In this document: piece by piece, positions 19,360 through 33,874 of the stretch | Layout: each line of letters begins with the position of its first letter | How positions within the stretch are numbered: the first letter of the stretch is position 1 | Virus record (IMG/VR): IMGVR_UViG_3300030106_006936 | Span: 1 to 34,946 of that record | Source of the DNA: a virus | Strand: one strand, 5' to 3' | Length of the DNA stretch: 34,946 bases | Notes under the pieces: model-generated | What the model saw: only the letters and a program-made list of their open reading frames with translations | The model's database searches: none | Told to the model about the DNA's origin: nothing | Program-made: the position numbers and the translations under genes

Positions 19360-20505
19360 TCAACTCAAATCCCGTATCGAGCCCTGAGCACCAAAGAAGG
19401 TGGTCCAGAGTTCGCCCATTGTTCGGTACAGTCCTTCCTGACCGAGGCGGTTGACACCGAATGGGTCACCAGTCTCGATACCAGACTCATAATACTGGGT
19501 GGGGATTGCTGTGCTGAAGTACATGTAATCAGTGTCGAAGTAGTAGATTCGACTGATACCAGATGATGCTTGTGTAACGTCCTTGGATGGAATGATTGGG
19601 ACACCGTTGTAGGTGGCCACTACGAATCCAGCCTCGATACCGGGAACGCCCTTTACACCGTTGAAGGTTGGGACGATTCGGCGCTCTTCCATGAACCTCT
19701 GTTGGCTCTGTAGAAGTTGCTGAACTCTCATCAGAGTGTCATACCCAGTTAGGATGACCTTTGGGTTTCCACCACGCTTCCAGATTTGCTGGAAGAGGTT
19801 GTCCAGTAGGGTGAGGCTCAGAGACCTGTTAGTTCCCTTGGTGGTTGAGACATCAACTTCTGCGCTGTGGAAGTCGGAACCACCATCACGAGTGATTGAG
19901 TACATGTCGTGGTCCGTGGTTGCGCTGACGTGGGTTGTCCCAGTTGTCATGTTGTCTGGGTCAGACGTGACACGGTCAAGAGACTCGAAGTCGTTTGCAG
20001 CAGGGGTGTCAAGGTCCTGCGTAAGCATTCGGTTGACGTGGTCTGCGTGGTGCTTGCCCATTTCTTCCTTCAGGACAGCACGAATGTCTCCAAGGCCGTC
20101 ATCTTTCTGGCCGAGGAAGATAGCAACTTCTGACATGTCGAAGGTGTGAGCCACTGTCTTTGGCTTGGCTGCAACATGTAGGAAGGTTGGCTTGGTCGTG
20201 TCTGGAAGGGTTGAGTTCTCAGCAACTCCGCCACCAACTGTGAAAGATGGCTTGTCAGTGATGATTCTCCAACCACTTCGGTCCCATGGCTTCTTCGGCA
20301 GGATGCTGAAGGCGTTGAATTCTTGGTTCAGTTGACTCCATACCTTGCGACCATAGATTGCTTGGTAGGTACCAGCGCTCGTACTGAGCATTGGGGCGTC
20401 GGCTTTCAGCAACTCGCTACCGGAGTATGTGTACCCCATTGAGTTGCCTGCGCCGTAGTAGTATCTTTCCATATCTGTAACTGTGCGGATGTAATCTCTT
20501 GCCAT
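19360..20505 (-). CDS. HK97-type major capsid protein
   Basis: A 381-residue protein immediately downstream of the protease-scaffold gene. Strong capsid features include an early helical region, a long helix near residues 135-160 (IRAVLKEEMGKHHADHVNRM), a central FxxIWKRGGNPKVILTGYDT segment, and a C-terminal region with YNGVPIIPSKDV and a YYFDTDYMYFS pattern typical of HK97-fold P and A domains. It begins at ATG 20505 with AAGGAGG eight bases upstream. The sequence is more GC-rich than the outlying genes, as is common for highly expressed capsid genes. No fused scaffold is present, consistent with a separate scaffold in the protease gene. Confidence 0.85.
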   Translation of the reverse strand: MARDYIRTVTDMERYYYGAGNSMGYTYSGSELLKADAPMLSTSAGTYQAIYGRKVWSQLNQEFNAFSILPKKPWDRSGWRIITDKPSFTVGGGVAENSTLPDTTKPTFLHVAAKPKTVAHTFDMSEVAIFLGQKDDGLGDIRAVLKEEMGKHHADHVNRMLTQDLDTPAANDFESLDRVTSDPDNMTTGTTHVSATTDHDMYSITRDGGSDFHSAEVDVSTTKGTNRSLSLTLLDNLFQQIWKRGGNPKVILTGYDTLMRVQQLLQSQQRFMEERRIVPTFNGVKGVPGIEAGFVVATYNGVPIIPSKDVTQASSGISRIYYFDTDYMYFSTAIPTQYYESGIETGDPFGVNRLGQEGLYRTMGELWTTFFGAQGSIRDLS

Positions 20506-20513
20506 TCTTCATT

Positions 20514-20520
20514 CCTCCTT
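20514..20520 (-). promoter_or_regulatory. Strong ribosome-binding site AAGGAGG of the major capsid gene
   Basis: AAGGAGG lies eight bases before the capsid ATG on the minus strand and overlaps the TAA of the protease gene. It is among the best Shine-Dalgarno matches in the window, as expected for the most abundant virion protein. Confidence 0.75.
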
Positions 20521-21884
20521 TAGTTTCCCCTCACTGCTTTTCCAGCAAGCCTGTGGACATCGTCCCACGACATGTTGGCGAGTTCCGTTGTTTCGGGAAC
20601 TTCTACACTGGGAATTTCTGCTTTGTTGATGGACACTCCACCAGAGGCGGTCAATCGGTCAATGCGTTCTGCAAGCCCGGTGACTGCCTTCTCGATGTGA
20701 GCGATTGGTGCTCGTGCATCGAAGGCGTCTGCTTCTGCCTTTTGTACTTCAGCAGAGATTTCGCCATCGAATCGATGTTGGAATTGCTCACCGAGGTAAG
20801 CCTTGTATTGCTGCTCAAGAGCAGCGGCCTTGAAGACTTCGTAAGCGGATTCGAGGTCGCTGGAAGAGACACTCGCTGGGTTGACGAATCCCTTTAGAGT
20901 TGAGTCCTTTCCTTTTCCGCCTGCACCGAATTCGGCTTTGCGGGATGAGGGCTTTCCTTCGCTCTGCTGACGACCCTTTGCTTGGCCGCCGAAGCGCTCT
21001 GCTCCGTCACCGATTTCTTTTGGTGAGGAACCGAGGTTAGCCTTGTTGACATCGAAGTGGTCTCGGGCAGCGCCTACATCCACACCGGATGACTTGGCTA
21101 CTCCCTCAAGATAGTTGAGGTATTCCTCAGAGACGACATCGGAGAGTTCGCTCTTCTCAAAATCTGAGTAAGCCATTTTCTCCTCATCCTCTTCTTCATC
21201 ATTTTCATCCTCATCTCCCTCTTCCTTTACTGGGGGCTTCTTCTTGTCTGCCATAAAGTCAGGCATCTCGCCCTTTTCCATGGCTTCAAGCCGTCCATCA
21301 AGTCGAGCAAGTACGTTCGACAGTTCGTTCATTGCATTAGGTTCGTCAGTCATTTTTTCTACGTCCTCTTTTAGAATTCGAAAAGTTGCCTCTGGGTTGA
21401 TGCCTTTCTCACATATTGTGACTTCGTGGAGTTCGAGATTAGAAATCTCGTTGTATGTTCCACGCTCAGGGTCAGACTTCTGCATTCGCTTGAATGCCTG
21501 ACCACCGATGCTAAAGCCCCGTAGGTTACCTTTCCGAATCTCATTGGCGACTTCTCTCGCCTTTTCTATATCATCTCGTAGTCGTACAACTACGAAAAGT
21601 CCTGAATCATCGACTTCTGACTTCCAAACATTGCCAGTCGAGTCGACATATGAAGGGATAACTTCCCCAACCTGAATATTACTATGTGAGAGTTGTACAT
21701 TTCTAAAGGGGGACTCCATGAAGGAGTTGAATGCCCCATTCAATGCGTTCTTCGTGATGAGGTCTCCCTGCTTGTCTACCAGTTCAACACTGGCATAACC
21801 TGCTAAAACGAGGTCTTGGCTGCCTTTTAGGACCTGCAAATCTCCGGTGGGGAGGATTCGCTGGGGTGCTAAAGCGATTGCCAT
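20520..21884 (-). CDS. Prohead protease fused to scaffold-like region
   Basis: A 454-residue protein. Residues 1-150 resemble HK97-type (S78-like) prohead proteases: GYASVELVDKQGDLIT near 29-44, a likely catalytic His67 in QLSHSNIQ, and Ser125 in RGFSIGG. The remainder is scaffold-like: an acidic run near residues 215-235 (EEGDEDENDEEEDEEK), a Gly/Lys/Ser-rich linker, a helical stretch (LESAYEVFKAAALEQQYKAY) and a C-terminal motif MSWDDVHRLAGKAV. Such fusions supply both scaffold and maturation protease; the protease then digests the scaffold. The closing motif recurs in the small gene at 28673-29038. No strong Shine-Dalgarno is visible before ATG 21884, which lies 28 bases after the upstream stop. 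Confidence 0.8.
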   Translation of the reverse strand: MAIALAPQRILPTGDLQVLKGSQDLVLAGYASVELVDKQGDLITKNALNGAFNSFMESPFRNVQLSHSNIQVGEVIPSYVDSTGNVWKSEVDDSGLFVVVRLRDDIEKAREVANEIRKGNLRGFSIGGQAFKRMQKSDPERGTYNEISNLELHEVTICEKGINPEATFRILKEDVEKMTDEPNAMNELSNVLARLDGRLEAMEKGEMPDFMADKKKPPVKEEGDEDENDEEEDEEKMAYSDFEKSELSDVVSEEYLNYLEGVAKSSGVDVGAARDHFDVNKANLGSSPKEIGDGAERFGGQAKGRQQSEGKPSSRKAEFGAGGKGKDSTLKGFVNPASVSSSDLESAYEVFKAAALEQQYKAYLGEQFQHRFDGEISAEVQKAEADAFDARAPIAHIEKAVTGLAERIDRLTASGGVSINKAEIPSVEVPETTELANMSWDDVHRLAGKAVRGN

Positions 21885-21912: not shown

Positions 21913-24900
21913 TTAAAGAGATATGTTTGCACTTTCTTCGTCATAATCGATAGAAACACCATCGTCTGACATGTAAAATCCATCTTTCTTCTTCTTTTCT
22001 TCACGTAATTTACCAGTTTCTCTGGGAAAATCGAAATCTGGTAAAGTGGCTTCGTGCTCAAGTTTTGTTGGCCCTCTGGGGCTGGAGATGGGCGTGGCAT
22101 AATCTATACCAAGACCTCTTGGACCCGGATAACCCCCGCTACCAACAACACCAGCAACATTTGTTTTCAACAATAAATCCATGATACGTGCAGCGGTCGT
22201 TGCTGCCTTTATCTGAAGGTGCTCAGGGAGGTTTGGCGCCTTTCTTTCAGGCTTCTCTATAATTTCCTCTCCGTCTGCTACTTTCCGTTTATGTTTAGGA
22301 ATCAAGGGCTTGCCATCTCCTGCTGAGGGATATACCTCTTCTTTTTCCTGTAATTCTTCATCACGATATGTTTCAGATAATGTAATGATATATTCTTCTT
22401 TGAGTAAATCTTCCTCCTCCGTTGTGATAGATATGATATGCCCATCGTCCAACCCATAGATTGCTTCTCCAATATCATTGAAAACAATATGCAAAGAGTC
22501 TTCTGATTTACGAACAGATGCTTTTGGTTTAGCCTTGATTCTTCTACTTAGATTCTGTAAAGTCTCTGTGCTCGTGATACCAGAACCAATACCATGAGAG
22601 ACGATTCGTCCTCCACGAACAATGAACTTAGGTCTCCCATCTGTCTTTTTCTCAATGACTCGTGTTACATTAACAGCAACAACATCTCCGGGTTCATACT
22701 CATCATTAGCCCTGAAGACAGAGCCGACATCCATGTAGGCTTGGCCCTCTCTCATAACAACCACATCTTCAACCCCGTCTGTTTGAACAAGCGGCCCCAC
22801 TCCCAATCTATATCCTGACCCCTTCTTATCAAGAACAATGAAATTGAGATAATGAGAGGGGTCAAGGAGTACCCACTTAGGGTGTCTACGATTACCCCTT
22901 GGATACACTGTTAATGAATCTCTGAGAAGAACTGGTGTGTCAGTTCGTATATTCTCTACAAGTTCTGTTAATTCGTCTTCGTTGCCTTCACGAAGATTAT
23001 CTGGTGACGGTGTCTCTATATTCTCAGTGCTGGTGAAAAGAGAACGTAGGAGTTTAAGTCGCTCATGTGAGCGCATATCCATTACATTGCTTCCCTGAAA
23101 TCCAACAAGGTCCACAACATGGTATCTCTCTCCATTATAGATAGTGTCAACCATGAAAGATTTCTCACAAATCTTTTTGAAATCTTCTTTGATTTCATCT
23201 TCTAAATGATAAGCGTCTCCATCTTCATCGTAAGCATTCACTTTGTCATCTTCTTTGCTTACCATCAGATGTATACCATCTGGCCATCTTTGTACAACCC
23301 ATTCACCACTGAATCCTTTGAGATGTCTCAAATCATCAAGTGTGAAAATCTGGTGCATAGGTAATACTGGGGGTACCCAAGAATCCTCTTTTCTCATATC
23401 AACAGGATATCCGCCAGTGTTTCTTATGTCATGGAATGTGGACTGTAAAGGTGAGACAGACATAACCTGCGCTCTCATGTTAGGGTCTTGAATATGGTCT
23501 TCGAACATTGATTGTGTGATGTTATTCGGTGTTTGAACAAATGCGTTCTGTTGTAAAGTTTGCATCCCCATAATGCTTCCAGTCATTGGGTCAATAACAC
23601 CGCCTATGTTTCTTGGATAGATTGCTCCATTTTCTCGCTTGAAACCAGCAGAGTTAGCAATGGAAGAAGCGACATTAGAGGAATTTGGGTGAACTGGCTC
23701 GATAGGGTGCATACCCCATTCATACCTTTTCTCGCCCTCTAAATCGAAATCAGGCTGACCTTGATATGTTTGTTCGCCCCCTCTTTCTATATTGGGGTTG
23801 CTCAATAACACCGTATGCATCGCTTGATGAGCACGCAGAAGTTTTTGGTGGACATGGGTGTTATATGTTGGGACTCCCAATTGTGCGGTCATAGCCTCAT
23901 GTCTACGTTTCTTCAACCCCTTATCTCTTGGTATCTCTGGTGGATGAAGGATTTTCATTCCTTCTGATTTCCATTCACGCTCTCTTTCTGGGGCGCCCCA
24001 AGCAGTCATCCTGCCCAACCTGCCGGGATTAGAATGGATTGATTGGAACATAGTATTAGCATGCTCCATTTGTTCAATCATACTTGGGTTGTGGCGACGA
24101 TGTTTTTTGCCTTGCCCATGTGTATTATGTGCATTCAGCATGAGATTACCAACAAGGTCCCCATCTGTTATTGGCAGGCCATATGTTTCAGCAAATTGTT
24201 CAGCGTCTAATTTGTCATAGTCACCTTCTCCAATCTTACCTGTACTGAAACCATGAAGTAAATTGGGCAAAGAGCCAGCGAACATAGCATTCCTGTGCTC
24301 TCCATGAGGTATTTTGTCTCGTATATTCTGGAATATCTCTTTCATCATATCTATTTCATGAGTCCCTTTACCCCTACCTGCAACTGCTTCTAAACCCGCC
24401 CAATTAATCCCTAATGCGTTTGCCATCTCTTCATCATTCATATCTGATGTGACTCTTCCCTTATCCTCTTGTGAACGATGATATGCCCACTCATCAACAA
24501 GTTTCTTCAAATCTCCATAGAAATCAACGTACTCTCCCTCATCCTTTGTTTCTAAGTGGTCTCGCCTTGTTGTAGCGAGCCTTTCGAATTCTGGGTCGAT
24601 GGTCTTGGCTTTACCATGAGTAGTATGTTGCTCACTACCATTAACGTGAAGGAAAGTATTTGCTAATTCCATGATATGGTGAAGATTTCCTCGTGTCACT
24701 TCAGGTTGGTTAGGCACAATGACAGGAATGCCCTGCTCCTCGTACTGTTGAATGATTCTTTTTGCTACATCATGTATCGCATCAGAATCTGTTTCTATAC
24801 GCTGATGTGCCTTATCGTGTATGTCTTGTGAAATTTTATGATGCCTCTGTTCTTCCACCTCTTCTTCAGGGTAATCTGGATTCAAGTATGCCTCAGCACT

Positions 24901-27900
24901 AACCATATCACGATGGCGGATTGCATCAAGATGTTCATCCATGGTCCGGTGGAATGGGCTTCGCAGACTTGAAGTATATTTCACCTCATTATCATTAGGT
25001 GTAGCATAGAAAGGTAGGTGATGTGGCCTATGATAACCAAGTTTAGTGGCTGTCATGAAATGATTAGAATTAGAAATAAGGGAGTGTTGAGAGTGCCCAT
25101 ATTCCGAGCCCGGAAAACTTCTTGCTTGTGATGCTAATGTTTTCTTACCCATATCTAATTCTGTTTCAGTTTCCTTATCAGTTTCTTCTAACCTATTGAA
25201 TTCTCTATCTGTATGAGCATTAGGATTAGAGCCCCACCAATGTAGTATACCATCCATGAGTCTTTCATTTTCTCCACTTCTTCTCTGTTCCTTTTTATCT
25301 TCATGGAGTTTAGGGCTCAAAGTTGCATAACGAGCGCTGAAATTGTTCTTTGTAAAAAATGGTTTATCCTTTTCCTGCCCTCTTTCGGGATGGTCTTTGC
25401 GCCTGACATCATAACGACTCAAATCCCAGAGGGGGTCTTTCAGTGTTACACCCCTTCGCACAGGCCCTCTTTCAAAGAAGAGTCCTCGTCGTCGCAATAT
25501 TCTATCTAAGTCGACATCTGCTATTTGTTTACCAGATGCTGCCATCGCTGCTTCTCTCTTTTCTCGCTCTCTTTTCGCTGCAGCGCTTTCTTCTTGGGCC
25601 GCAGGACCACCCTGTATTGCTCGCTCCTGTATTCTCTTGAGAGATTCCAATTCATCTGATGTTAGTAATTTAACACCTGCAGGATGAACAGTAGGAAAAT
25701 GGATATCGTTGTGTGACATCCTCCACAATAGTGGGTCATCTGGATGTCTTACAGGGTCAGTAGATAGCATGAAAGAGTGCGTACCATGCTCATCCTCTGC
25801 GTGTGCATAACGGTCATGCATCATTTCTTTTGCGTGTTTCAAATCAAGATTAGCGCCACCAGCCATCGCAAATGGGGTGTGCCAGAATGTAGCAGCAGTA
25901 GAAAGCACACCAGAATCATCAGATTCAGGCATGAAATTGAATGAAGATGATATTCCCTTTCTCGCACCTCTTTGTCCTGTCAAAGCGTGCACTCTGTTCC
26001 TTCGGGCACGAGAGGGCCCTGAGCGACTTATCGAACGTTTAGCAGCCTCTTCCATGATGGATTGAAAATTATCTGGAGAAATTATGCTCGTATTGGTTTT
26101 CGGGCCATAATCAGGGTGCTCATGGATATTTTCTGAAAACCCTAATTCCATACCAAGTGCGTCTTTCTTTTTCATATTGACATGCGCTAAACGAGCAAAT
26201 GTCTCTGTATCAAGTAAACCTCTCTGAGTTTCGCTGCCGGGCTGAGACAGAACATCTCGCCCTGTATGTTTACCATCAGCATCTTTTTCTTTAATCAATT
26301 GAGGGATGTCGACTTCATCTATCCCCCTCTTAGTCGCTATGTATTCCTTTCCTCCGACCATGTTAGAATAATATGCATTCAATAAAGGCCCAAGAACCCC
26401 TTCTTCTTTTGCTACTTGATAGAGAATAGATGGGTCGATGTCATTCATATTCCCTCGGCCTTCATATTCACCACCTTCATCTTCTGGTGTGAAAGAAGGA
26501 ACTGAGCCCGGAAGTTGAGATTGGCGCTCAATCCAATCCCACTCTCCTTCTTTACGGGCGAGTTTATTTCTCTGTATCAGCGCATTTGACATATGGGGGA
26601 CAGGGTGCTCTGGGTTATTCCCACCATACATAGCAAGATGAGCCATTATTTCTGCTCTCTGTTCTGGAGACCTCCATTCAAGACCATAGAAATAAGCATT
26701 GTATCCAAGGCCAGTTGGAATCTCAATGTCCTTTGTTATTGTGTGTTTCTTTCTCAAAGCCTCTTCTGCGTCTTCCAGATACGCTTCTCTTCCCTTTTCG
26801 GTTAACCTCGAGGCGTATTCATCATATGCTGTATTATATGCTTCTTCGTCAAGTGTTTCGACAGGGATTTTCATTGACCCGTCCTTATCCTGCCACTCTT
26901 TCTGCCTCTGGTCAAGATGGGCTTTACGTTGTTCTTTGCTGCTCATATCTTCTATGCTATCTCTATTATCACCTTGCCAGCGTTTGAAATCTTCTTCGTA
27001 TTCTTCATGCATTGAAGAGGGCTTACCAGTATTGATTTTAGCATCTAAAGGAATGAGATATTTGTATAATTTATCATCTTCTGAAGATTGAGCGAATAAG
27101 TCGGAATGGATATTCTGTCTATCGAATGCTTGATGGAAGGCAGCATGGCGTTGTGCTTGAGTTTGTCCTTTCTCGTCTGGTTCTACATGTCGACGAAGCA
27201 TAGTAGACCATACTGGTATTCCTTCTGCTTCGCCTTTACGTAAAGGATGGAGATTCTCATCAAAAATGTGGGATGAATGGGGCTTTTCACCATCTGGGTG
27301 TTCGATGGCAGACCCATTATGGTGAAACCAATCAGACGCTAACAAAGCACCCGCCAGCATTCTTTGTCCTTCATCCTCCATGTCAGGAAGGTGTTCTCCA
27401 AACACACTGTTAATTCGCCCGGCGTTTGATGAAGAGTCGAAAAACTCTCTATTATGATAAATTATTTTGCCGATATCTTTCATATCCTCAGTGAAGATAT
27501 TACCTTGTACAGATTCCCCCGTCTTTTGGTCTATTTTCTTCTCACTCATTCTTTTAGGAAGGACTCTTCTACGCTGCATAAGAGGCCGTAGTATAGGGTT
27601 TCCTTCATCATCCAGAACTTGGTTTCCGTCCTTATCTTTTACACCTACCATGCGCTTTGAGGGTTTGAATACAAATTTCCCACGTGGGCCTTTTCGCTTT
27701 GGCTCCTCGATAGTTTCCTGTTGAGCGCCCCTTCCTTCTCTTTTCTCCCTCTCCTCTTGCCTTCTATCCAAAACATCTTGAGCAACGAGGTCAAAGATTC
27801 TCTGACGCTCATTCATATCTTTACAGATTCTATCAGCATGCTCAAGAAGGGCTATCTCTTCATACGAATATGTCTTAACGACATTCTGTCTATCAAGATT

Positions 27901-28017
27901 CAATTTAGAGAGATACAGATTTGCTGCTGCATCTTCAAGGTCGATTCTATCAAGGGTGGATTTGTAGAAATCTATGAGGTGTCTATGATAGACATCAATT
28001 CCAGATTCTATACCCAT
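21913..28017 (-). CDS. Giant 2034-residue protein with C-terminal degenerate ligase-like domain
   Basis: A single uninterrupted frame starting at ATG 28017, with GAGGGGATG about eight bases upstream. It lies between the portal block and the protease gene, where head-morphogenesis or internal head proteins usually sit. The first 1500 residues are highly charged, His-rich and mostly probably helical, with no recognised domain. Residues about 1560-1806 look like an ATP-dependent DNA ligase core with lost catalytic lysines (see separate entry). The C-terminal 200 residues are charged, include one helical stretch (IKAATTAARIMDLLLKTN) and end VSIDYDEESANISL. It takes up about 17% of the window. Likely a large head-internal or vertex protein; an ejected protein is another possibility. 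Confidence 0.75.
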   Translation of the reverse strand: MGIESGIDVYHRHLIDFYKSTLDRIDLEDAAANLYLSKLNLDRQNVVKTYSYEEIALLEHADRICKDMNERQRIFDLVAQDVLDRRQEEREKREGRGAQQETIEEPKRKGPRGKFVFKPSKRMVGVKDKDGNQVLDDEGNPILRPLMQRRRVLPKRMSEKKIDQKTGESVQGNIFTEDMKDIGKIIYHNREFFDSSSNAGRINSVFGEHLPDMEDEGQRMLAGALLASDWFHHNGSAIEHPDGEKPHSSHIFDENLHPLRKGEAEGIPVWSTMLRRHVEPDEKGQTQAQRHAAFHQAFDRQNIHSDLFAQSSEDDKLYKYLIPLDAKINTGKPSSMHEEYEEDFKRWQGDNRDSIEDMSSKEQRKAHLDQRQKEWQDKDGSMKIPVETLDEEAYNTAYDEYASRLTEKGREAYLEDAEEALRKKHTITKDIEIPTGLGYNAYFYGLEWRSPEQRAEIMAHLAMYGGNNPEHPVPHMSNALIQRNKLARKEGEWDWIERQSQLPGSVPSFTPEDEGGEYEGRGNMNDIDPSILYQVAKEEGVLGPLLNAYYSNMVGGKEYIATKRGIDEVDIPQLIKEKDADGKHTGRDVLSQPGSETQRGLLDTETFARLAHVNMKKKDALGMELGFSENIHEHPDYGPKTNTSIISPDNFQSIMEEAAKRSISRSGPSRARRNRVHALTGQRGARKGISSSFNFMPESDDSGVLSTAATFWHTPFAMAGGANLDLKHAKEMMHDRYAHAEDEHGTHSFMLSTDPVRHPDDPLLWRMSHNDIHFPTVHPAGVKLLTSDELESLKRIQERAIQGGPAAQEESAAAKREREKREAAMAASGKQIADVDLDRILRRRGLFFERGPVRRGVTLKDPLWDLSRYDVRRKDHPERGQEKDKPFFTKNNFSARYATLSPKLHEDKKEQRRSGENERLMDGILHWWGSNPNAHTDREFNRLEETDKETETELDMGKKTLASQARSFPGSEYGHSQHSLISNSNHFMTATKLGYHRPHHLPFYATPNDNEVKYTSSLRSPFHRTMDEHLDAIRHRDMVSAEAYLNPDYPEEEVEEQRHHKISQDIHDKAHQRIETDSDAIHDVAKRIIQQYEEQGIPVIVPNQPEVTRGNLHHIMELANTFLHVNGSEQHTTHGKAKTIDPEFERLATTRRDHLETKDEGEYVDFYGDLKKLVDEWAYHRSQEDKGRVTSDMNDEEMANALGINWAGLEAVAGRGKGTHEIDMMKEIFQNIRDKIPHGEHRNAMFAGSLPNLLHGFSTGKIGEGDYDKLDAEQFAETYGLPITDGDLVGNLMLNAHNTHGQGKKHRRHNPSMIEQMEHANTMFQSIHSNPGRLGRMTAWGAPEREREWKSEGMKILHPPEIPRDKGLKKRRHEAMTAQLGVPTYNTHVHQKLLRAHQAMHTVLLSNPNIERGGEQTYQGQPDFDLEGEKRYEWGMHPIEPVHPNSSNVASSIANSAGFKRENGAIYPRNIGGVIDPMTGSIMGMQTLQQNAFVQTPNNITQSMFEDHIQDPNMRAQVMSVSPLQSTFHDIRNTGGYPVDMRKEDSWVPPVLPMHQIFTLDDLRHLKGFSGEWVVQRWPDGIHLMVSKEDDKVNAYDEDGDAYHLEDEIKEDFKKICEKSFMVDTIYNGERYHVVDLVGFQGSNVMDMRSHERLKLLRSLFTSTENIETPSPDNLREGNEDELTELVENIRTDTPVLLRDSLTVYPRGNRRHPKWVLLDPSHYLNFIVLDKKGSGYRLGVGPLVQTDGVEDVVVMREGQAYMDVGSVFRANDEYEPGDVVAVNVTRVIEKKTDGRPKFIVRGGRIVSHGIGSGITSTETLQNLSRRIKAKPKASVRKSEDSLHIVFNDIGEAIYGLDDGHIISITTEEEDLLKEEYIITLSETYRDEELQEKEEVYPSAGDGKPLIPKHKRKVADGEEIIEKPERKAPNLPEHLQIKAATTAARIMDLLLKTNVAGVVGSGGYPGPRGLGIDYATPISSPRGPTKLEHEATLPDFDFPRETGKLREEKKKKDGFYMSDDGVSIDYDEESANISL
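22600..23340 (-). other. Degenerate nucleotidyltransferase + OB-fold (DNA ligase-like) region
   Basis: In the encoded protein, VVQRWPDGIHLMV (W1578, D1580, G1581) fits ligase motif I (KxDGxR) with Trp in the place of the nucleotidyl-accepting Lys and His for the Arg. YNGERY (1627-1632) fits motif III (DGE). YHVVDLVGFQGSNVM then ERLKLLRSLF fits motif IIIa. TPVLLRDSLTVYPRGNRR fits motif IV without its Glu. PKWVLLD fits motif V without its lysines. Residues 1722-1806 have the strand pattern of the ligase OB fold. The match is by eye. Confidence 0.55.
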
Positions 28018-28031
28018 TCAACTTCATCCCC

Positions 28032-28676
28032 TCAGAATAAGGATTCGCCTACTCGCTTGAGGATATCTCCTTTGTTTAGTGCCGTGGGGACACCTTTGTC
28101 TCCACTATCATTGACATGTGAATCTAATGTCGATTGACTCGTAGGATAATGTTGGTTATGATTATCGAGTGCTTTGGAACTTTCTGGCTTTGGCTCAGAG
28201 CGCTTTACATCCTCAGATTCGATACCATAATTGTTAGTCCAATAATGTGCTGTTTGGGTTTGCCCACCAGTTTCAGTCACGAAATGTGAGGGGCCTATTT
28301 TGGAACCCTCTTTCTGGTTATAATCAGGAGCGAATTCTTTCTTTACTTCTTTTTCCTCACATATTTCGCAACCTTCGCATTCGTCTGCTTTACACATACC
28401 AGCCTTGCATACTTCGCAGCCTTCGCATTCGTCTGCTTTACACATGCCCTTGGAAGCCTTTTCCTTATCTTTGCCCATATCTTTGGGCTGAGGGCCTCCT
28501 ACAGCAATAACGAGCGCCATCTTGCCCTTTGCTTTCTTATCCATATCATCTGCTTTCTTGAGTATTTGGTCGACATCGGTTCCCCAATTTGTGTAATACG
28601 GCTTCATATTTTCTAAACTCCTTGTAACGTGTTTAATAACATACCATGCATTATCTAAAGCGTCCCTATCCATCAT
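28032..28676 (-). CDS. Cys-rich repeat protein of unknown function
   Basis: A 214-residue protein starting in a four-base ATGA overlap with the upstream stop. An N-terminal predicted helical region (residues 1-60) is followed by a 16-residue tandem repeat with Cys at 79, 84, 87, 90 and again at 95, 100, 103, 106 (C-x4-C-x2-C-x2-C twice, in an acidic and Lys-containing context). The C-terminal half is polar and ends LNKGDILKRVGESLF. The cysteine arrangement could bind zinc or an iron-sulfur cluster, or form disulfides. It is transcribed directly before the giant ligase-like gene and after two other small head-block genes. No family was recognised. Confidence 0.6.
   Translation of the reverse strand: MMDRDALDNAWYVIKHVTRSLENMKPYYTNWGTDVDQILKKADDMDKKAKGKMALVIAVGGPQPKDMGKDKEKASKGMCKADECEGCEVCKAGMCKADECEGCEICEEKEVKKEFAPDYNQKEGSKIGPSHFVTETGGQTQTAHYWTNNYGIESEDVKRSEPKPESSKALDNHNQHYPTSQSTLDSHVNDSGDKGVPTALNKGDILKRVGESLF
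28353..28448 (-). repeat. 48-bp tandem repeat, two copies, encoding the Cys-rich units
   Basis: Two adjacent 48-base units encode the two 16-residue Cys-rich repeats (GMCKADECEGCEVCKA and GMCKADECEGCEICEE). The units are nearly identical in DNA, with blocks such as cttcgcattcgtctgcttta shared, which indicates a recent in-frame duplication. Confidence 0.75.
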
Positions 28677-29038
28677 ACCATCTCGGTCTGATTACCGAGC
28701 ACGCCTGCTGATTTAGCAGTATCAGCCAAAGAATGGATGTCTTCCCATGTCATGGCGTGAAACTCTTCATTTGTAGATGGCACAGTGTCCATCTCCATTT
28801 CTTTGAGTACTTGCCCGGAATCTCCCCTAAATGTGTCTGGAAGTATATCTGTTGGATGTGGTGTCCTCGATGATGTAAATCCTGCTTTCCTCAAAATCAA
28901 ATCGGGGTTAGAGATGATACCCTTGAGCACTTGGTTCTCATGACGAAGTGCGTCAATGTCTGTGTCCATCTTTTCCATTTTGGTGATGAGAGCCGACATC
29001 AGTTGGTCGACCAAAGGGACATCGTCGTTATCACTCAT
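28673..29038 (-). CDS. Scaffold-like coiled-coil protein sharing the protease C-terminal motif
   Basis: A protein of about 121 residues if started at ATG 29038, which overlaps the upstream stop as ATGA; a GTG at 29050 is an alternative. An N-terminal likely coiled coil (LMSALITKMEKMDTDIDALR) is followed by a polar middle. Near the end is AMTWEDIHSLADTAKSAG, matching NMSWDDVHRLAGKAV at the end of the protease-scaffold protein. A coiled coil plus this motif fits a second scaffold or an internal head protein recruited in the same way. It ends in an ATGA overlap with the next gene. Confidence 0.6.
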   Translation of the reverse strand: MSDNDDVPLVDQLMSALITKMEKMDTDIDALRHENQVLKGIISNPDLILRKAGFTSSRTPHPTDILPDTFRGDSGQVLKEMEMDTVPSTNEEFHAMTWEDIHSLADTAKSAGVLGNQTEMV

Positions 29039-29385
29039 GCTCCTCGCCACATTGTTCGTACACCCTTATGCATGCGAGGCCCGTTACGTGCTGACATGAT
29101 TGTTCCGGGCAATTGGTTCTCTCGGTCTACTCCGGTTGTGTAAGTCTCTTGCTTGAATTGCCAAACAGGTGTCCCGCCAGCAAACACATCATTGATGCCA
29201 AGTGGCTTGTCGGATTTCTGGACAAGGGCATCTAAATCAGAAGAAAGATAATCAGCGAATTTTTGGATTTCCATCAATGTATTCCTCGCTGTATTTGGGT
29301 CCCCATCATCTATCGCTTTCTGAAAAGCATCAACAGTTGTGCGGAGTTTACGGGCCATAGGGTCCATCTTTGCGATATCGCTCAT
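29035..29385 (-). CDS. Small protein after the portal gene, unknown function
   Basis: A protein of about 116 residues, started at ATG 29385 (GTG 29388 is an alternative) with GGGGTG six bases upstream. The N-terminal two-thirds are probably helical (MARKLRTTVDAFQKAIDDGD, MEIQKFADYLSSDLDALVQK). The C-terminus is basic and ends VRTMWRGA, resembling the portal's ARRFRGA ending. It begins about 40 bases after the portal stop and overlaps the following gene by four bases. It may be a portal-associated or internal head protein; nothing more specific can be said. Confidence 0.55.
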   Translation of the reverse strand: MSDIAKMDPMARKLRTTVDAFQKAIDDGDPNTARNTLMEIQKFADYLSSDLDALVQKSDKPLGINDVFAGGTPVWQFKQETYTTGVDRENQLPGTIMSARNGPRMHKGVRTMWRGA

Positions 29386-29425
29386 CACAGCACCCCAAGC
29401 ATATCATACAATTGAATGTTTCCTA

Positions 29426-31180
29426 TTAAGCGCCCCGAAATCTTCGAGCATTCTCCATTGAATTGGATGTTCTTTCACCACGTGTAAGTGGGGGACCTCT
29501 CTGTTGTACATTTGATATGGGTGACCCCGAACCTTGGGACCCTCTTCGCTGAGGAGCAGCGGGCCCACGTGGGTTACGAATACCTTGGCCTTCTCCTCCC
29601 GGTTGACTTCCCATAGGTAATCCTCCACCCATGGCTCCCATTGGCATTCCTCCCATTGGCATTCCTCCACCGGGGGGCATTCCGCCCATTGGCATCCCAC
29701 CCATTGGCATTCCTCCCGGCATACCTCCCGGCATACCTCCTCCCATCGGTTGCTCGCCCTCTACGGGTTTGCGGAAGAAGAATTTGAGGTCGTGCTCTGC
29801 ATCTTCCTTAAGTTCAGGCATGAAACCAATCATCATCATCCTCTGTGCAACGTTAACTGCCATCTCATCTCTTCGTAATCGAGTGACTTCATCTTCTTCC
29901 TCATTCGGATAAAGAGTCAATACCCAATCTGTGATATCCATCTCCTTGAGGAGGCGGGGGAAGAGTTTCTTTGAGTATACTTTATGCCCGAATTCTACAG
30001 CACGATTTGTTACGAGAATCTGTAACCCCTCATTGGAAAGGCCCCCAGATTTACCCGTATCATTCATGAAGACAGGTGAGACGCCATAGAAAGATGCGAT
30101 ACGGGTTCGTATTTCATCTCGTACAGATATGTACTGCATCTCTTCAAGAGTATCCATGAACCGCACAAAATTCACTCCCCCTCTTCCTGAGTTAGACTCT
30201 ATACCAACTTTTGGAATGTAATGAGGGTCTCTTTCCATCTTTTCATCGACACCCTTCCAGAAAGATTTCATTGATTCAAGATTATCAGTTGTGATAGAGA
30301 TTATCCCTTTCGGGAATCTGCGTTTAGAATAAGCAGTATACAGATAGTTATCCATGGCAGTAAGCGTCATTGCTTGTCGCCAGAGAGATTGAACTGGTGG
30401 GCGACCATAAAGTCGGGATGGTTGATATTTCGAAATATGGATTACTTCTCCTTCAATGTAATACTGCGTTTTTCCTTGACCTGCAGTATTCACATAATGG
30501 ACATCTTCTAATTCCCTATCACACAATTGGCAGGTATCGATGCCACTGTTGAAAGACTCTACATTTTCACGGTGTTCTGGGCATATACGATATCTCCCAC
30601 CACGAACTCCTCTTTTGTCAGCAACGATACGCATGAAGATTGGGTCACCACGAATCATTTCACGTACTCTTTGGAATGCTATCTTTTTGTCATCAAGTGG
30701 GTCATAATAGTAGTCTTTGACCAGAATCAGAAATGCGTCGTCTACTACATTCAAATCCCTTTCAACTTCACGAAGGATGTCATTGAAACTCTGTTCCATA
30801 GAATTGTCTTGTTCGAGTAACCATCGTGCATAGATAAGTTGGTCTGGGTCAGGGCTTCTGACCTCCCCATCACAAAGAGTACATATTTCTACATCGTGTT
30901 GGAATTCGTGATTACAATCTTTACATTTCTTGAAGAATTTCTTCTCGAAATAATGACCACGGCGAAACATCTCTTGTGCTAAAGTGGTTATGACAGTTCG
31001 AAGAATAAGATTCTCATCAGTAACAGCGTAAAGAGCGGGGAGGGTTATACCCTGTAGAATAACTGGTTCTTGGATACCACTGGAGTAAAGTGGCATTGTT
31101 GGTTCAGGAGTAGATGCTCGCCTGAATGGTGAAGTTAATGCTCCAATCGCACGTCGAACGAACCCCTTTTCTTTAGCCAT
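29426..31180 (-). CDS. Portal protein with two Cys-rich (zinc-ribbon-like) inserts
   Basis: A 584-residue protein with portal features: ITTLAQEMFRRG near residues 64-74, YQPSRLYGRPPVQSLW at 252-267, and the ASFYGVSPVFMNDTGKSGGL region near 362-381, which resembles the conserved core of phage portals. Two inserts carry metal-binding-like cysteines: C86-x2-C89-x10-C100-x2-C103 and C200-x2-H203-x13-C217-x2-C220. The C-terminal 100 residues are low-complexity with about ten GGMP/PMGG units and a basic end. A GGAGGAAGG site precedes ATG 31180. The start overlaps the end of the LAGLIDADG gene by eight bases. The portal forms the DNA entry ring at one vertex. Confidence 0.8.
   Translation of the reverse strand: MAKEKGFVRRAIGALTSPFRRASTPEPTMPLYSSGIQEPVILQGITLPALYAVTDENLILRTVITTLAQEMFRRGHYFEKKFFKKCKDCNHEFQHDVEICTLCDGEVRSPDPDQLIYARWLLEQDNSMEQSFNDILREVERDLNVVDDAFLILVKDYYYDPLDDKKIAFQRVREMIRGDPIFMRIVADKRGVRGGRYRICPEHRENVESFNSGIDTCQLCDRELEDVHYVNTAGQGKTQYYIEGEVIHISKYQPSRLYGRPPVQSLWRQAMTLTAMDNYLYTAYSKRRFPKGIISITTDNLESMKSFWKGVDEKMERDPHYIPKVGIESNSGRGGVNFVRFMDTLEEMQYISVRDEIRTRIASFYGVSPVFMNDTGKSGGLSNEGLQILVTNRAVEFGHKVYSKKLFPRLLKEMDITDWVLTLYPNEEEDEVTRLRRDEMAVNVAQRMMMIGFMPELKEDAEHDLKFFFRKPVEGEQPMGGGMPGGMPGGMPMGGMPMGGMPPGGGMPMGGMPMGAMGGGLPMGSQPGGEGQGIRNPRGPAAPQRRGSQGSGSPISNVQQRGPPLTRGERTSNSMENARRFRGA
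29609..29746 (-). repeat. Met-Gly-Pro low-complexity repeats at the portal C-terminus
   Basis: The DNA consists of repeated units such as cccattggcattcctcc, encoding roughly ten GGMP or PMGG units at residues about 479-524. It is protein-coding low complexity, not a CRISPR or regulatory array. Confidence 0.75.
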
Positions 31181-32393
31181 GTAATCCTTCCTCCAGTTTT
31201 GCTACCTTTTCGGCAGTTATCCCCCATTCTGCCAGAAGGGTCTCCCCTTTAGCAGTATCTTCCCAATTCTTGTATTGAATCAGTCTTTGTAATTCTTGCT
31301 TTCTCACATCGTCCCCAGCATCCAAATATTCCAACATCGCTTTTGCTTGGGCCTTTTTCATCCTAAGATGAGGCATAACTCCTGTCAATAATTTCTTGAG
31401 GTCATCTTTAGAATAAAATTGTAGTCGATGCTGGCTTCTCTGACCATTTTTGTATATCTTCTGGTCCAATTGTAATTTCCCAATCTCAATTGATTTATAC
31501 ATCTCTTCGCAATGTAACTTACCTCTATCACCAGTGGCAACAATGCCTGCTCTTGGCTCTCCTCTACCAGTGATAGCAAGATAGCCATCAGCATCCAAGA
31601 AGCCAGCAGTATATGCCCACACATCTTTAATCACAAGGCCGAAGGGACCGAAATGTGTCCAAGTCGAGCGACCTGAGCCTTTGATGATATCAAAATCGTC
31701 TCCGTGCATTTTGAAAAGCATTGATAGAGACTTAGTTGTAACACCCCTTGTATCCACATCAGAATCATACAAACGCTCGTTGATATCCCTGATAGTAAGA
31801 GACCCATTATCTCTGAGGATATCCACTGATTTATTCAGTATCTGTGTTTCTTGTTTGGTAAGAGAACCTTCGGGGGAAAGCGCCCTCTTCCAAATACTGC
31901 GTGCATCTCTTCTATTCTCAATTGATTCTAACCACACCTGTTTATCTATCTCGTCCCAAGTATATTCAAGATTGCTTAACCGATGCAAATCTTCGTGAGC
32001 CTTTTCGAATTTGAGAATTGCACGATGTAGAGTTTCTTTCCGATTCTCCCCTTGTTTACGTAATGATTTCAATGTGCTTTCTGTTAACCCGAGCCTTCGT
32101 GCAGTGGTATGATGGCCATCCAACCAAGGAAACATATCTAACGAAGATTGAATCTCATGTTCTTTGATAACCAAAATGGATTTGATGACACTATCTATTT
32201 CCTCTTTCAATTCCTTCTTTTTTCTGCGTGCTTTTCGTAATTTTCTTACAACCTCATTAGCGCGTGAGCCCACATAGAGTTCAAACCAACCATCTCCATT
32301 AGCACCAAAAGGTGTAAGGGGTTCACGTTTAGTGATAGTTTCCCCCACAGAAGGGGACGCAATAACTCCTATTTTCGAGCCTACCCAACTCAT
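31173..32393 (-). CDS. HTH plus LAGLIDADG endonuclease-like protein between terminase and portal
   Basis: A 406-residue protein if started at ATG 32393, which overlaps the terminase stop as ATGA; a GTG at 32405 is an alternative. An N-terminal likely helix-turn-helix (HTTARRLGLTESTLKSLRKQ) is followed by a charged helical stretch, then a winged-helix-like segment near residues 190-245. A single LAGLIDADG motif, TAGFLDADGYL, sits at about 262-272, with a following fold resembling LAGLIDADG homing endonucleases (QHRLQFYSKDDLKKLL). One motif suggests a homodimer. No intron or intein is visible in the flanking genes. It may be a homing endonuclease, or a nuclease co-opted for packaging. Confidence 0.7.
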   Translation of the reverse strand: MSWVGSKIGVIASPSVGETITKREPLTPFGANGDGWFELYVGSRANEVVRKLRKARRKKKELKEEIDSVIKSILVIKEHEIQSSLDMFPWLDGHHTTARRLGLTESTLKSLRKQGENRKETLHRAILKFEKAHEDLHRLSNLEYTWDEIDKQVWLESIENRRDARSIWKRALSPEGSLTKQETQILNKSVDILRDNGSLTIRDINERLYDSDVDTRGVTTKSLSMLFKMHGDDFDIIKGSGRSTWTHFGPFGLVIKDVWAYTAGFLDADGYLAITGRGEPRAGIVATGDRGKLHCEEMYKSIEIGKLQLDQKIYKNGQRSQHRLQFYSKDDLKKLLTGVMPHLRMKKAQAKAMLEYLDAGDDVRKQELQRLIQYKNWEDTAKGETLLAEWGITAEKVAKLEEGLHG

Positions 32394-33874
32394 GCTATAA
32401 ACCACGGACTTTGTTGTGTGGACGATGATGACGCCCCGCTGAGGAATTCATCGAAACCGGGCAGAACGTCATCCAATAAGACGACAGAGCCTCTGAATTC
32501 TTTTGTGCCCCAATTCGCAAGAGCAAGTCCCATCGCTAAATCGTCATGAGAGCCCACCGAGCGAAGTTTCCCTCTTCTACTCATACCAAACCGATTGAGT
32601 TCAGTTTCAAGTTTCATTGTGAATTTCTTTGACCTTTCGTCTCCCCAAGGCGTGCGAATCTTGCCTTGTTCGAACGCCATGAGTAAAGACATGAACATAG
32701 ACTCCTTCTTTGTTCTGGTCGTCATGAATGTTTTAATGGGTAAATCATCAACAAATCGAAGTTCTGTTTCGAACATTCTTTGAAAATTGTTACCCTCAAG
32801 TTCAATGAGGTCAGGATGGAATCTATTATTCAACATGATAATCTGTCTTTTCTGTTCATCGCTATTGAGTCCTTTTTCATGAACGCAATTGATAATCTGT
32901 TTTGTGCCATCTGCAATCTGGCGCATTACAAGCATGACAGTGTAATCTGCGTTCTTATCTGATGCAATAGCAGGGTCCCAACCAATGAAATGATGACCAA
33001 ATATCCCACTCTGCTCACCGTTCTCGTCATATTCATATTCTGCTCTATCGAGAAGAACAAGATTCTCATCCCTTGCTGATTCAAGGATACCATGTGGGAA
33101 CATACTTGCTACATCATGAATGGGCTCACACAGATATTCACGAGCGAATTGAATAGCGGGCATCGATAAGCGTCTTTGTTCAAGGGCGCCAATATCCCAT
33201 CGTTCTGGCCATAGCGGTTCACCATCAGTGATTGCTGGATATGTCTGTACAAGGAAAGTGTCCCTTGTTTCTAATTCGGCATACAGGTCATTGTAACTGA
33301 ATGGTGTTCCCACCATCATTAATCGTGCAGAGTGATGCAGAACAGGAAGAAGAACACCATAGAACCAATCAGACGCACGCTTGAGTTCACTTCCAGTAGT
33401 ACCCCATAGAATATCGTCACACACAACTACGTCAGGGTGGAAACCACGAGTTGCTCCACCAACCGATTTACCCATGATTCTGCTACCATTGGCTAAATCA
33501 AAGTAAGATTTGGACCATGGGCGCCCTTCTGGTATAAGTTTCTTGAGCATAGGAGTGGATTTGATACTGTTACGAATGAAACGCATGTGTTCGAGCGTCT
33601 GTTCAAGAGAGTGGCTGAAAATCATAATGGAAATCTTAGGCTTGACAATAGAGAGCCACAGGGCGTAAGACATGAAAAGAGTCGATTTACCGTGGTCACG
33701 ACTGGCTTTCACACAATAGTAGCGATTTTTCTCTAACCCTTCGACCCATTGTTCGTGATGTGTACTATAATGAAACCCAAGAATAGTTTCAAAGAAGAAG
33801 CGGAAAGATTTGCGAGACATCTCCCAGTCCATTTCATGGACTAATTGACGAAGAGCGTCTTCGTCCATGTTCAC
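32390..33874 (-). CDS. terL: Terminase large subunit
   Basis: A 494-residue protein; GTG 33874 overlaps the upstream stop by four bases, with ATG 33868 as an alternative. The ATPase domain has a Walker A at about 57-65 (ASRDHGKST), a Walker B with D153-D154 in PDVVVCDDIL, and a coupling motif MMVGTPFSYND at 186-196. The nuclease domain has the expected acidic triad: Asp300 in FIGWDPA, Glu360 in LIELEGNN and Asp444/445 in GSHDDLA. It cuts and translocates DNA through the portal. No conventional small terminase was recognised nearby. Length is typical for the family. Confidence 0.92.
   Translation of the reverse strand: MNMDEDALRQLVHEMDWEMSRKSFRFFFETILGFHYSTHHEQWVEGLEKNRYYCVKASRDHGKSTLFMSYALWLSIVKPKISIMIFSHSLEQTLEHMRFIRNSIKSTPMLKKLIPEGRPWSKSYFDLANGSRIMGKSVGGATRGFHPDVVVCDDILWGTTGSELKRASDWFYGVLLPVLHHSARLMMVGTPFSYNDLYAELETRDTFLVQTYPAITDGEPLWPERWDIGALEQRRLSMPAIQFAREYLCEPIHDVASMFPHGILESARDENLVLLDRAEYEYDENGEQSGIFGHHFIGWDPAIASDKNADYTVMLVMRQIADGTKQIINCVHEKGLNSDEQKRQIIMLNNRFHPDLIELEGNNFQRMFETELRFVDDLPIKTFMTTRTKKESMFMSLLMAFEQGKIRTPWGDERSKKFTMKLETELNRFGMSRRGKLRSVGSHDDLAMGLALANWGTKEFRGSVVLLDDVLPGFDEFLSGASSSSTQQSPWFIA

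Follow-up and report, generated by a model that had tools for sequence, protein, structure and literature searches.

A predicted DNA-ligase core lacking its catalytic residues is conserved in a giant head-module protein of magroviruses

A giant protein encoded in the head operon of magroviruses carries, near its C-terminus, a domain which sequence profiles and a predicted structure identify as genuinely homologous to the core of ATP-dependent DNA ligases (adenylation plus OB domain). Across the family, this domain has lost the residues on which ligase catalysis depends and, judged from its sequence, it is very probably incapable of working as a DNA ligase. Most likely, it is a pseudo-ligase that has been kept as a binding module and not for sealing DNA. 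To our knowledge, no conserved pseudo-ligase has been described before as part of a head-module protein.

Magroviruses are tailed viruses whose hosts are marine Poseidoniales archaea, and they reportedly rank among the ocean's most abundant viruses. The DNA analyzed here (the window) is a 34,946-nt stretch that corresponds to a single virus record, IMGVR_UViG_3300030106_006936. Its major capsid protein (MCP) is 75-84% identical to those of at least 80 IMG/VR contigs, with lengths up to 118 kb, and about 34% identical to those of Druskaviridae haloviruses. Since these similarities fit the published relationship between magroviruses and Druskaviridae (PMC8651126), we infer that the window is a magrovirus fragment. 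Terminase, portal, S78 protease and MCP are all encoded on the minus strand, and the head module is laid out as follows:

19360..20505, minus strand: major capsid protein (phrog_24667, 2.5e-57)
20520..21884, minus strand: S78 prohead protease (Pfam Peptidase_S78, 1.4e-11), directly downstream of the giant gene
21913..28017, minus strand: open reading frame of the giant head-module protein, 2034 aa, with the predicted pseudo-ligase domain near its C-terminus
29426..31180, minus strand: portal protein (phrog_18178, 7e-60)
32390..33874, minus strand: terminase large subunit (phrog_38, 1.6e-63)

An earlier note on this DNA had placed the giant gene between the portal and protease genes and outside the replication module. 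That placement holds, except that three small genes (28032-28676, 28673-29050 and 29035-29388) separate the portal gene from the giant gene.

Some of the neighboring genes have features of their own. The 214-aa protein encoded at 28032-28676 (minus strand) contains repeated Cys clusters (CKADECEGCEVC) and has a match in just 43 of the 114 relatives. A common peptide, M[ST]W[DE][DE][VI]Hx[LM]A, ends both the S78 protease and the 125-aa protein encoded upstream of the giant gene at 28673-29050 (minus strand), as it does for both genes in relatives L034 and L146; this peptide is a candidate for a tail that targets prohead-destined proteins to the capsid or scaffold. Between terminase and portal, a 410-aa protein (31173-32405, minus strand) has a homing-endonuclease-like C-terminal part (phrog_5046, 1.1e-7).

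Neither the window domain by itself nor the entire giant protein gave useful matches when used directly as a query against viral contigs, phages and solved structures. Because the giant protein evolves fast, its relatives were instead collected through contigs carrying the MCP gene. A second IMG/VR scan gave 387 relatives, of which 80 were kept. Homologues of about 1800-2400 aa are encoded by 99 distinct full-length magrovirus open reading frames. In nearly all relatives found through the MCP, a giant gene occupies the same position, with similarity mainly toward the C-terminus of its product. The protease gene follows the giant gene in all 114 full-length loci, at a median gap of about 60 bases, the MCP gene follows in 111 of the 114, and the portal gene lies upstream in 95, some loci stopping short of the portal. 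Across these loci, the giant gene keeps a fixed place in the head operon, with the portal on one side and the protease on the other. No homologue of the domain was found in cellular genomes at the sensitivity used, in the phage collection, or in the head blocks of haloviruses and methanogen viruses.

The earlier note had read residues 1560-1806 of the giant protein, which correspond exactly to window positions 22600-23340, as ligase-like, with the motifs in order and followed by an OB fold, and had proposed profile and structure searches of this region. Taken alone, the window domain gave weak Pfam matches to SPN1_m3Gcap_bd (0.0026), DNA_ligase_A_M (0.04) and mRNA_cap_enzyme (0.056), all of them nucleotidyltransferase-fold families, and matched NCBIfam models of ATP-dependent ligases at 2.6e-4. 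When 48 aligned relatives were examined, DNA_ligase_A_M was matched in 30 of them (best 2.2e-8) and one NCBIfam ATP-dependent ligase model in 46, the best value over all ligase models being 6.4e-8. A profile of the family searched against PDB sequences found archaeal DNA ligases (2.9e-4). The AF2 model of the domain (pLDDT 84.9, pTM 0.80) has an adenylation fold followed by an OB fold and, when it was compared with the PDB by Foldseek, the best 50 listed matches were all DNA ligases, headed by 4eq5 (E 1.6e-13, probability 1.00). Most of the named matches in a viral structure library were DNA ligases or mRNA capping enzymes. An identity as capping enzyme or RNA ligase was discarded, as DNA ligases make up the top structural matches and the majority of the sequence matches. 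An hhalign comparison with five haloviral ligases gave little signal (probability 12, E 0.0026), which the small size of the template family probably explains. The profiles and the model thus agree with the first reading, and neither of the outcomes it had named as adverse, an unrelated fold or a lack of profile matches to ligase or capping-enzyme families, was observed.

The best sequence and structure matches to the domain are archaeal ATP-dependent DNA ligases of Thermococcus and Pyrococcus (4eq5, 2cfm, 9dfa), with which it shares the motif order I, III, IIIa, IV, V and the adenylation-then-OB fold. In contrast to these enzymes, the domain is embedded in a 2034-aa head-module protein, no ligase DNA-binding domain was recognized ahead of it or elsewhere in the giant protein, and the motif I Lys, the motif III and IV Glu and the first motif V Lys are missing. 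The following parts were located in the window:

22600..23370, minus strand: predicted pseudo-ligase domain, residues ~1550-1806, a degenerate adenylation (nucleotidyltransferase) domain plus OB fold (profile matches, AF2 model, Foldseek)
22861..22938, minus strand: degenerate motifs IV and V, residues 1694-1719 (TPVLLRDSLTVYPRGNRRHPKWVLLD; alignment to Thermococcus ligases and homologue counts)
23104..23148, minus strand: motif III in degenerate form, D1624-T-I with Ile in place of Glu, and motif IIIa, which retains D1636 (alignment of homologues)
23275..23289, minus strand: degenerate motif I, RWPDG, residues 1577-1581, with Trp1578 at the position of the nucleotide-accepting Lys

The extent of the degeneracy was counted in 112 distinct sequences, 106 of which cover motif I. 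Lys occupies the motif I position in none of these 106 homologues, where Trp (79), Tyr (16), Ile (6), Met (3) or Ser (2) is found, so that the Trp for Lys exchange first noticed in RWPDG is one form of a general loss. All 106 have a hydrophobic residue in place of the motif III Glu (Ile 85, Val 17, Met 3, Leu 1). Motif IV shows no conservation of Glu-Gly (Thr1694 and Pro1695 in the window virus), and 108 of 109 sequences have Arg instead of its Lys (Arg1699 in the window virus). The first motif V Lys is Leu, Val, Ile or Met in all homologues (Leu1717 in the window virus) and the second is mixed (Arg 57, Thr 20, Ser 19, Asp 8). The motif IV Glu and motif V Lys were thus correctly described in the earlier note as lost. 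In known members of the superfamily, the motif III and IV Glu and the motif V Lys bind metal and phosphate, the motif III Glu being a metal-binding residue. None of the motif I Lys, the motif III Glu, the motif IV Glu-Gly...Lys and the motif V KxK is conserved as such in the family. On this sequence evidence, the domain is unable to make lysyl-AMP, the intermediate of the mechanism established for the superfamily, and the loss of catalytic residues is fixed across the whole family and not peculiar to the window virus.

Other positions of the domain have been retained. The motif I Gly is kept in 105 of 106 sequences, the motif IIIa Asp (D1636) in 106 of 106 and the motif V Trp (Trp1715) in 109 of 109; most of the sequence YxxGExRHPKW around motif V is retained, RHPKW being invariant; and H1555, R1556, D1562, R1653 and R1658, which lie outside the catalytic set, are strongly conserved. 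Among 57 non-redundant giants, 66 of the 100 conserved columns (a single residue shared by 80% or more of the sequences) fall within residues 1551-1850, and a second cluster of 15 of the 100 falls within residues 1951-2000. In the domain, pairwise identity has a median of 0.42, versus 0.15 in residues 1-1540. By these sequence measures, no other large block of the giant protein is as well conserved as the ligase-like domain. Since it is the most conserved large part and yet appears to lack catalysis, it has presumably been selected for something else.

A further region of the giant protein stands out:

22015..22170, minus strand: conserved C-terminal tail, residues ~1950-2001 (GPRGLGIDYATPISSPRGPT...LPDFD), median pairwise identity 0.535

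Per residue, this tail is more conserved than the ligase-like domain, and it has no family match.

A nucleotidyltransferase fold without catalysis has a parallel in the m3G cap-binding domain of Snurportin-1, a eukaryotic nuclear import factor in which such a fold is retained for binding. Its Pfam family (PF21974) is matched by 24 of the 48 aligned family members, with a best value of 3.6e-6. Unlike Snurportin-1, the magrovirus domain shows nothing that points to cap binding, and DNA ligases are structurally closer to it.

We propose that, early in magrovirus history, a head-module protein captured the core (adenylation plus OB domains) of an ATP-dependent DNA ligase of the archaeal/eukaryotic type, and that this core would then have lost the residues needed for AMP uptake and would afterwards have been retained as a binding module. 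The giant protein, we infer, is assembled into the prohead, where the dead core would serve as a clamp-like holder of duplex DNA, most plausibly of an end or a nick, at a time that may coincide with packaging or fall just after ejection. To this proposal as a whole we give an even chance of being right. The adenylation and OB domains of ligases jointly grip duplex DNA. A DNA-holding module is favored because the retained part is this DNA-gripping pair and because a dead ligase can occupy DNA ends, as has been described for catalytically dead yeast Dnl4, which still acts in this way (PMC3694833). Several points count against it: the corresponding slot of the related haloviruses lacks a ligase-like domain, a subgroup of relatives has a shifted Lys (see below), and no magrovirus virion proteome was found in our search. 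The mean net charge of the domain is also negative (-6.8; OB part +2.8, adenylation part -4.1), so that a DNA-binding surface is not obvious from the sequence.

This negative charge speaks for a role in protein interaction or architecture, which we nevertheless consider unlikely. The fold would then be a rigid block that binds, for example, the portal, the protease, the capsid protein or the C-terminal tail of the giant itself, with no contact to nucleic acid. The head-operon location fits such a role, as does the conservation of RHPKW and of the five strongly conserved residues outside the catalytic set. The retention of the motif I Gly, the motif IIIa Asp and the motif V Trp speaks against it, since these belong to the nucleotide side of a ligase and would be needless in a mere scaffold.

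The slot between portal and protease is also occupied by large proteins (1200-1300 aa) in Druskaviridae, namely HVTV-1 gp115 and HCTV-1 gp109. These carry a Zeta-toxin kinase domain, with an ADP-ribosyltransferase domain in addition in HVTV-1, and have no ligase-like domain. Proteins encoded in this slot therefore tend to be large and to have enzyme-like domains, which by analogy is consistent with packaging of the magrovirus giant. The slot would also suit a polyvalent-type giant that enters the new cell together with the genome, where its dead core would compete with the host ligase, clamp or repair machinery or divert it; multidomain effectors encoded among head genes form a known class (PMC5512222). 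We regard an ejected effector of this kind as unlikely. Scans of 24 full magrovirus giants with Pfam and PHROGs revealed no MuF, effector or toxin domain, nor any other convincing domain beyond a few weak isolated matches, and the halovirus and magrovirus giants show no clear sequence relation.

A second ligase-like protein, of about 460 aa, was detected beside the RFC small subunit in the replication module of other magroviruses, and it is present in all five examined records longer than 90 kb. Its predicted model, of moderate confidence (pTM 0.49), matches 2cfm (Foldseek E 5.1e-16), and a profile-profile comparison links it to the domain of the giant (E 1.7e-5, probability 79). The two have the same ligase fold, as modeled, and a missing motif I Lys in common: the 12 aligned sequences of the second protein have no Lys at that position and, aligned by eye, read IVxGPR or similar instead of KxDGxR. 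They differ in that the second protein is more divergent, belongs to the replication module, and has a helical N-terminal domain like the DNA-binding domain of ligases. Since this protein also lacks the motif I Lys, magroviruses may, on sequence and model evidence, encode two pseudo-ligases and no active ligase. We think it quite improbable that these viruses encode no working ligase and use two conserved pseudo-ligases, one in the replication module and another packaged in the head, to hold or shield DNA ends or programmed nicks, thereby timing the action of host ligase.

The domain could still be an enzyme if an unusual nucleophile had taken over, or if it catalyzed a different reaction. Many relatives read SKWYDGKR, with Trp at the Lys position and the rest of KxDGxR intact. 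Because Lys is found one residue ahead of the motif I position in 46 relatives, mostly in this form, a shifted nucleophile is possible in the SKWYDGKR subgroup. An active nucleotidyltransferase is nevertheless very improbable: the window virus has Arg1577 at that place, and the losses in motifs III, IV and V extend to the whole family.

In the 2017 genomes, as cited in PMC7318539, the gene next to the prohead protease of group A magrovirus contig_156409 is called 'ATP-dependent DNA ligase'. Given the same gene order beside the protease, it is almost certainly the orthologue of the giant gene. A ligase is also listed in the Magrovirales replisome (PMC10768690, PMC12999244), and ICTV profiles and a diversity study count an ATP-dependent DNA ligase among the magrovirus replication genes. 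These annotations speak for a replicative ligase of the virus, which is nevertheless scarcely credible for a head-operon gene apart from the replication genes, with catalytic residues missing in all relatives and no recognized ligase DNA-binding domain. As the catalytic residues are absent in every relative examined, the name given in print, which implies a functional DNA ligase, is very probably mistaken. The literature searched, the 2017 primary description lying outside its scope, contained no remark on the missing residues that we could find. The novelty that the earlier note had seen in the fold is thus reduced by a ligase name already in print; what is new is that the annotated magrovirus ligase very probably cannot work as one.

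PF01068 was matched in 26 of 33 magrovirus records, each time at the giant protein, and additionally once, weakly, at the second ligase-like protein. In five near-complete magrovirus records, PF01653 and PF09414 (NAD-dependent and RNA ligase), a haloviral ligase profile and the pattern KxDGxR...W.K.K gave no match. By these searches, an active ligase is likely to be absent from magroviruses, short of proven because records may be incomplete and divergent ligases may be missed.

At least for the protease-adjacent gene, the picture of magroviruses as having their own ligase and a near-complete replisome therefore rests on a domain that is unable to use the known ligase mechanism. As this domain would not work as a ligase, dependence of magroviruses on host ligase is predicted. 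What had been a routine annotation becomes a testable example in which the head module of a tailed virus would have taken over the fold of a repair enzyme.
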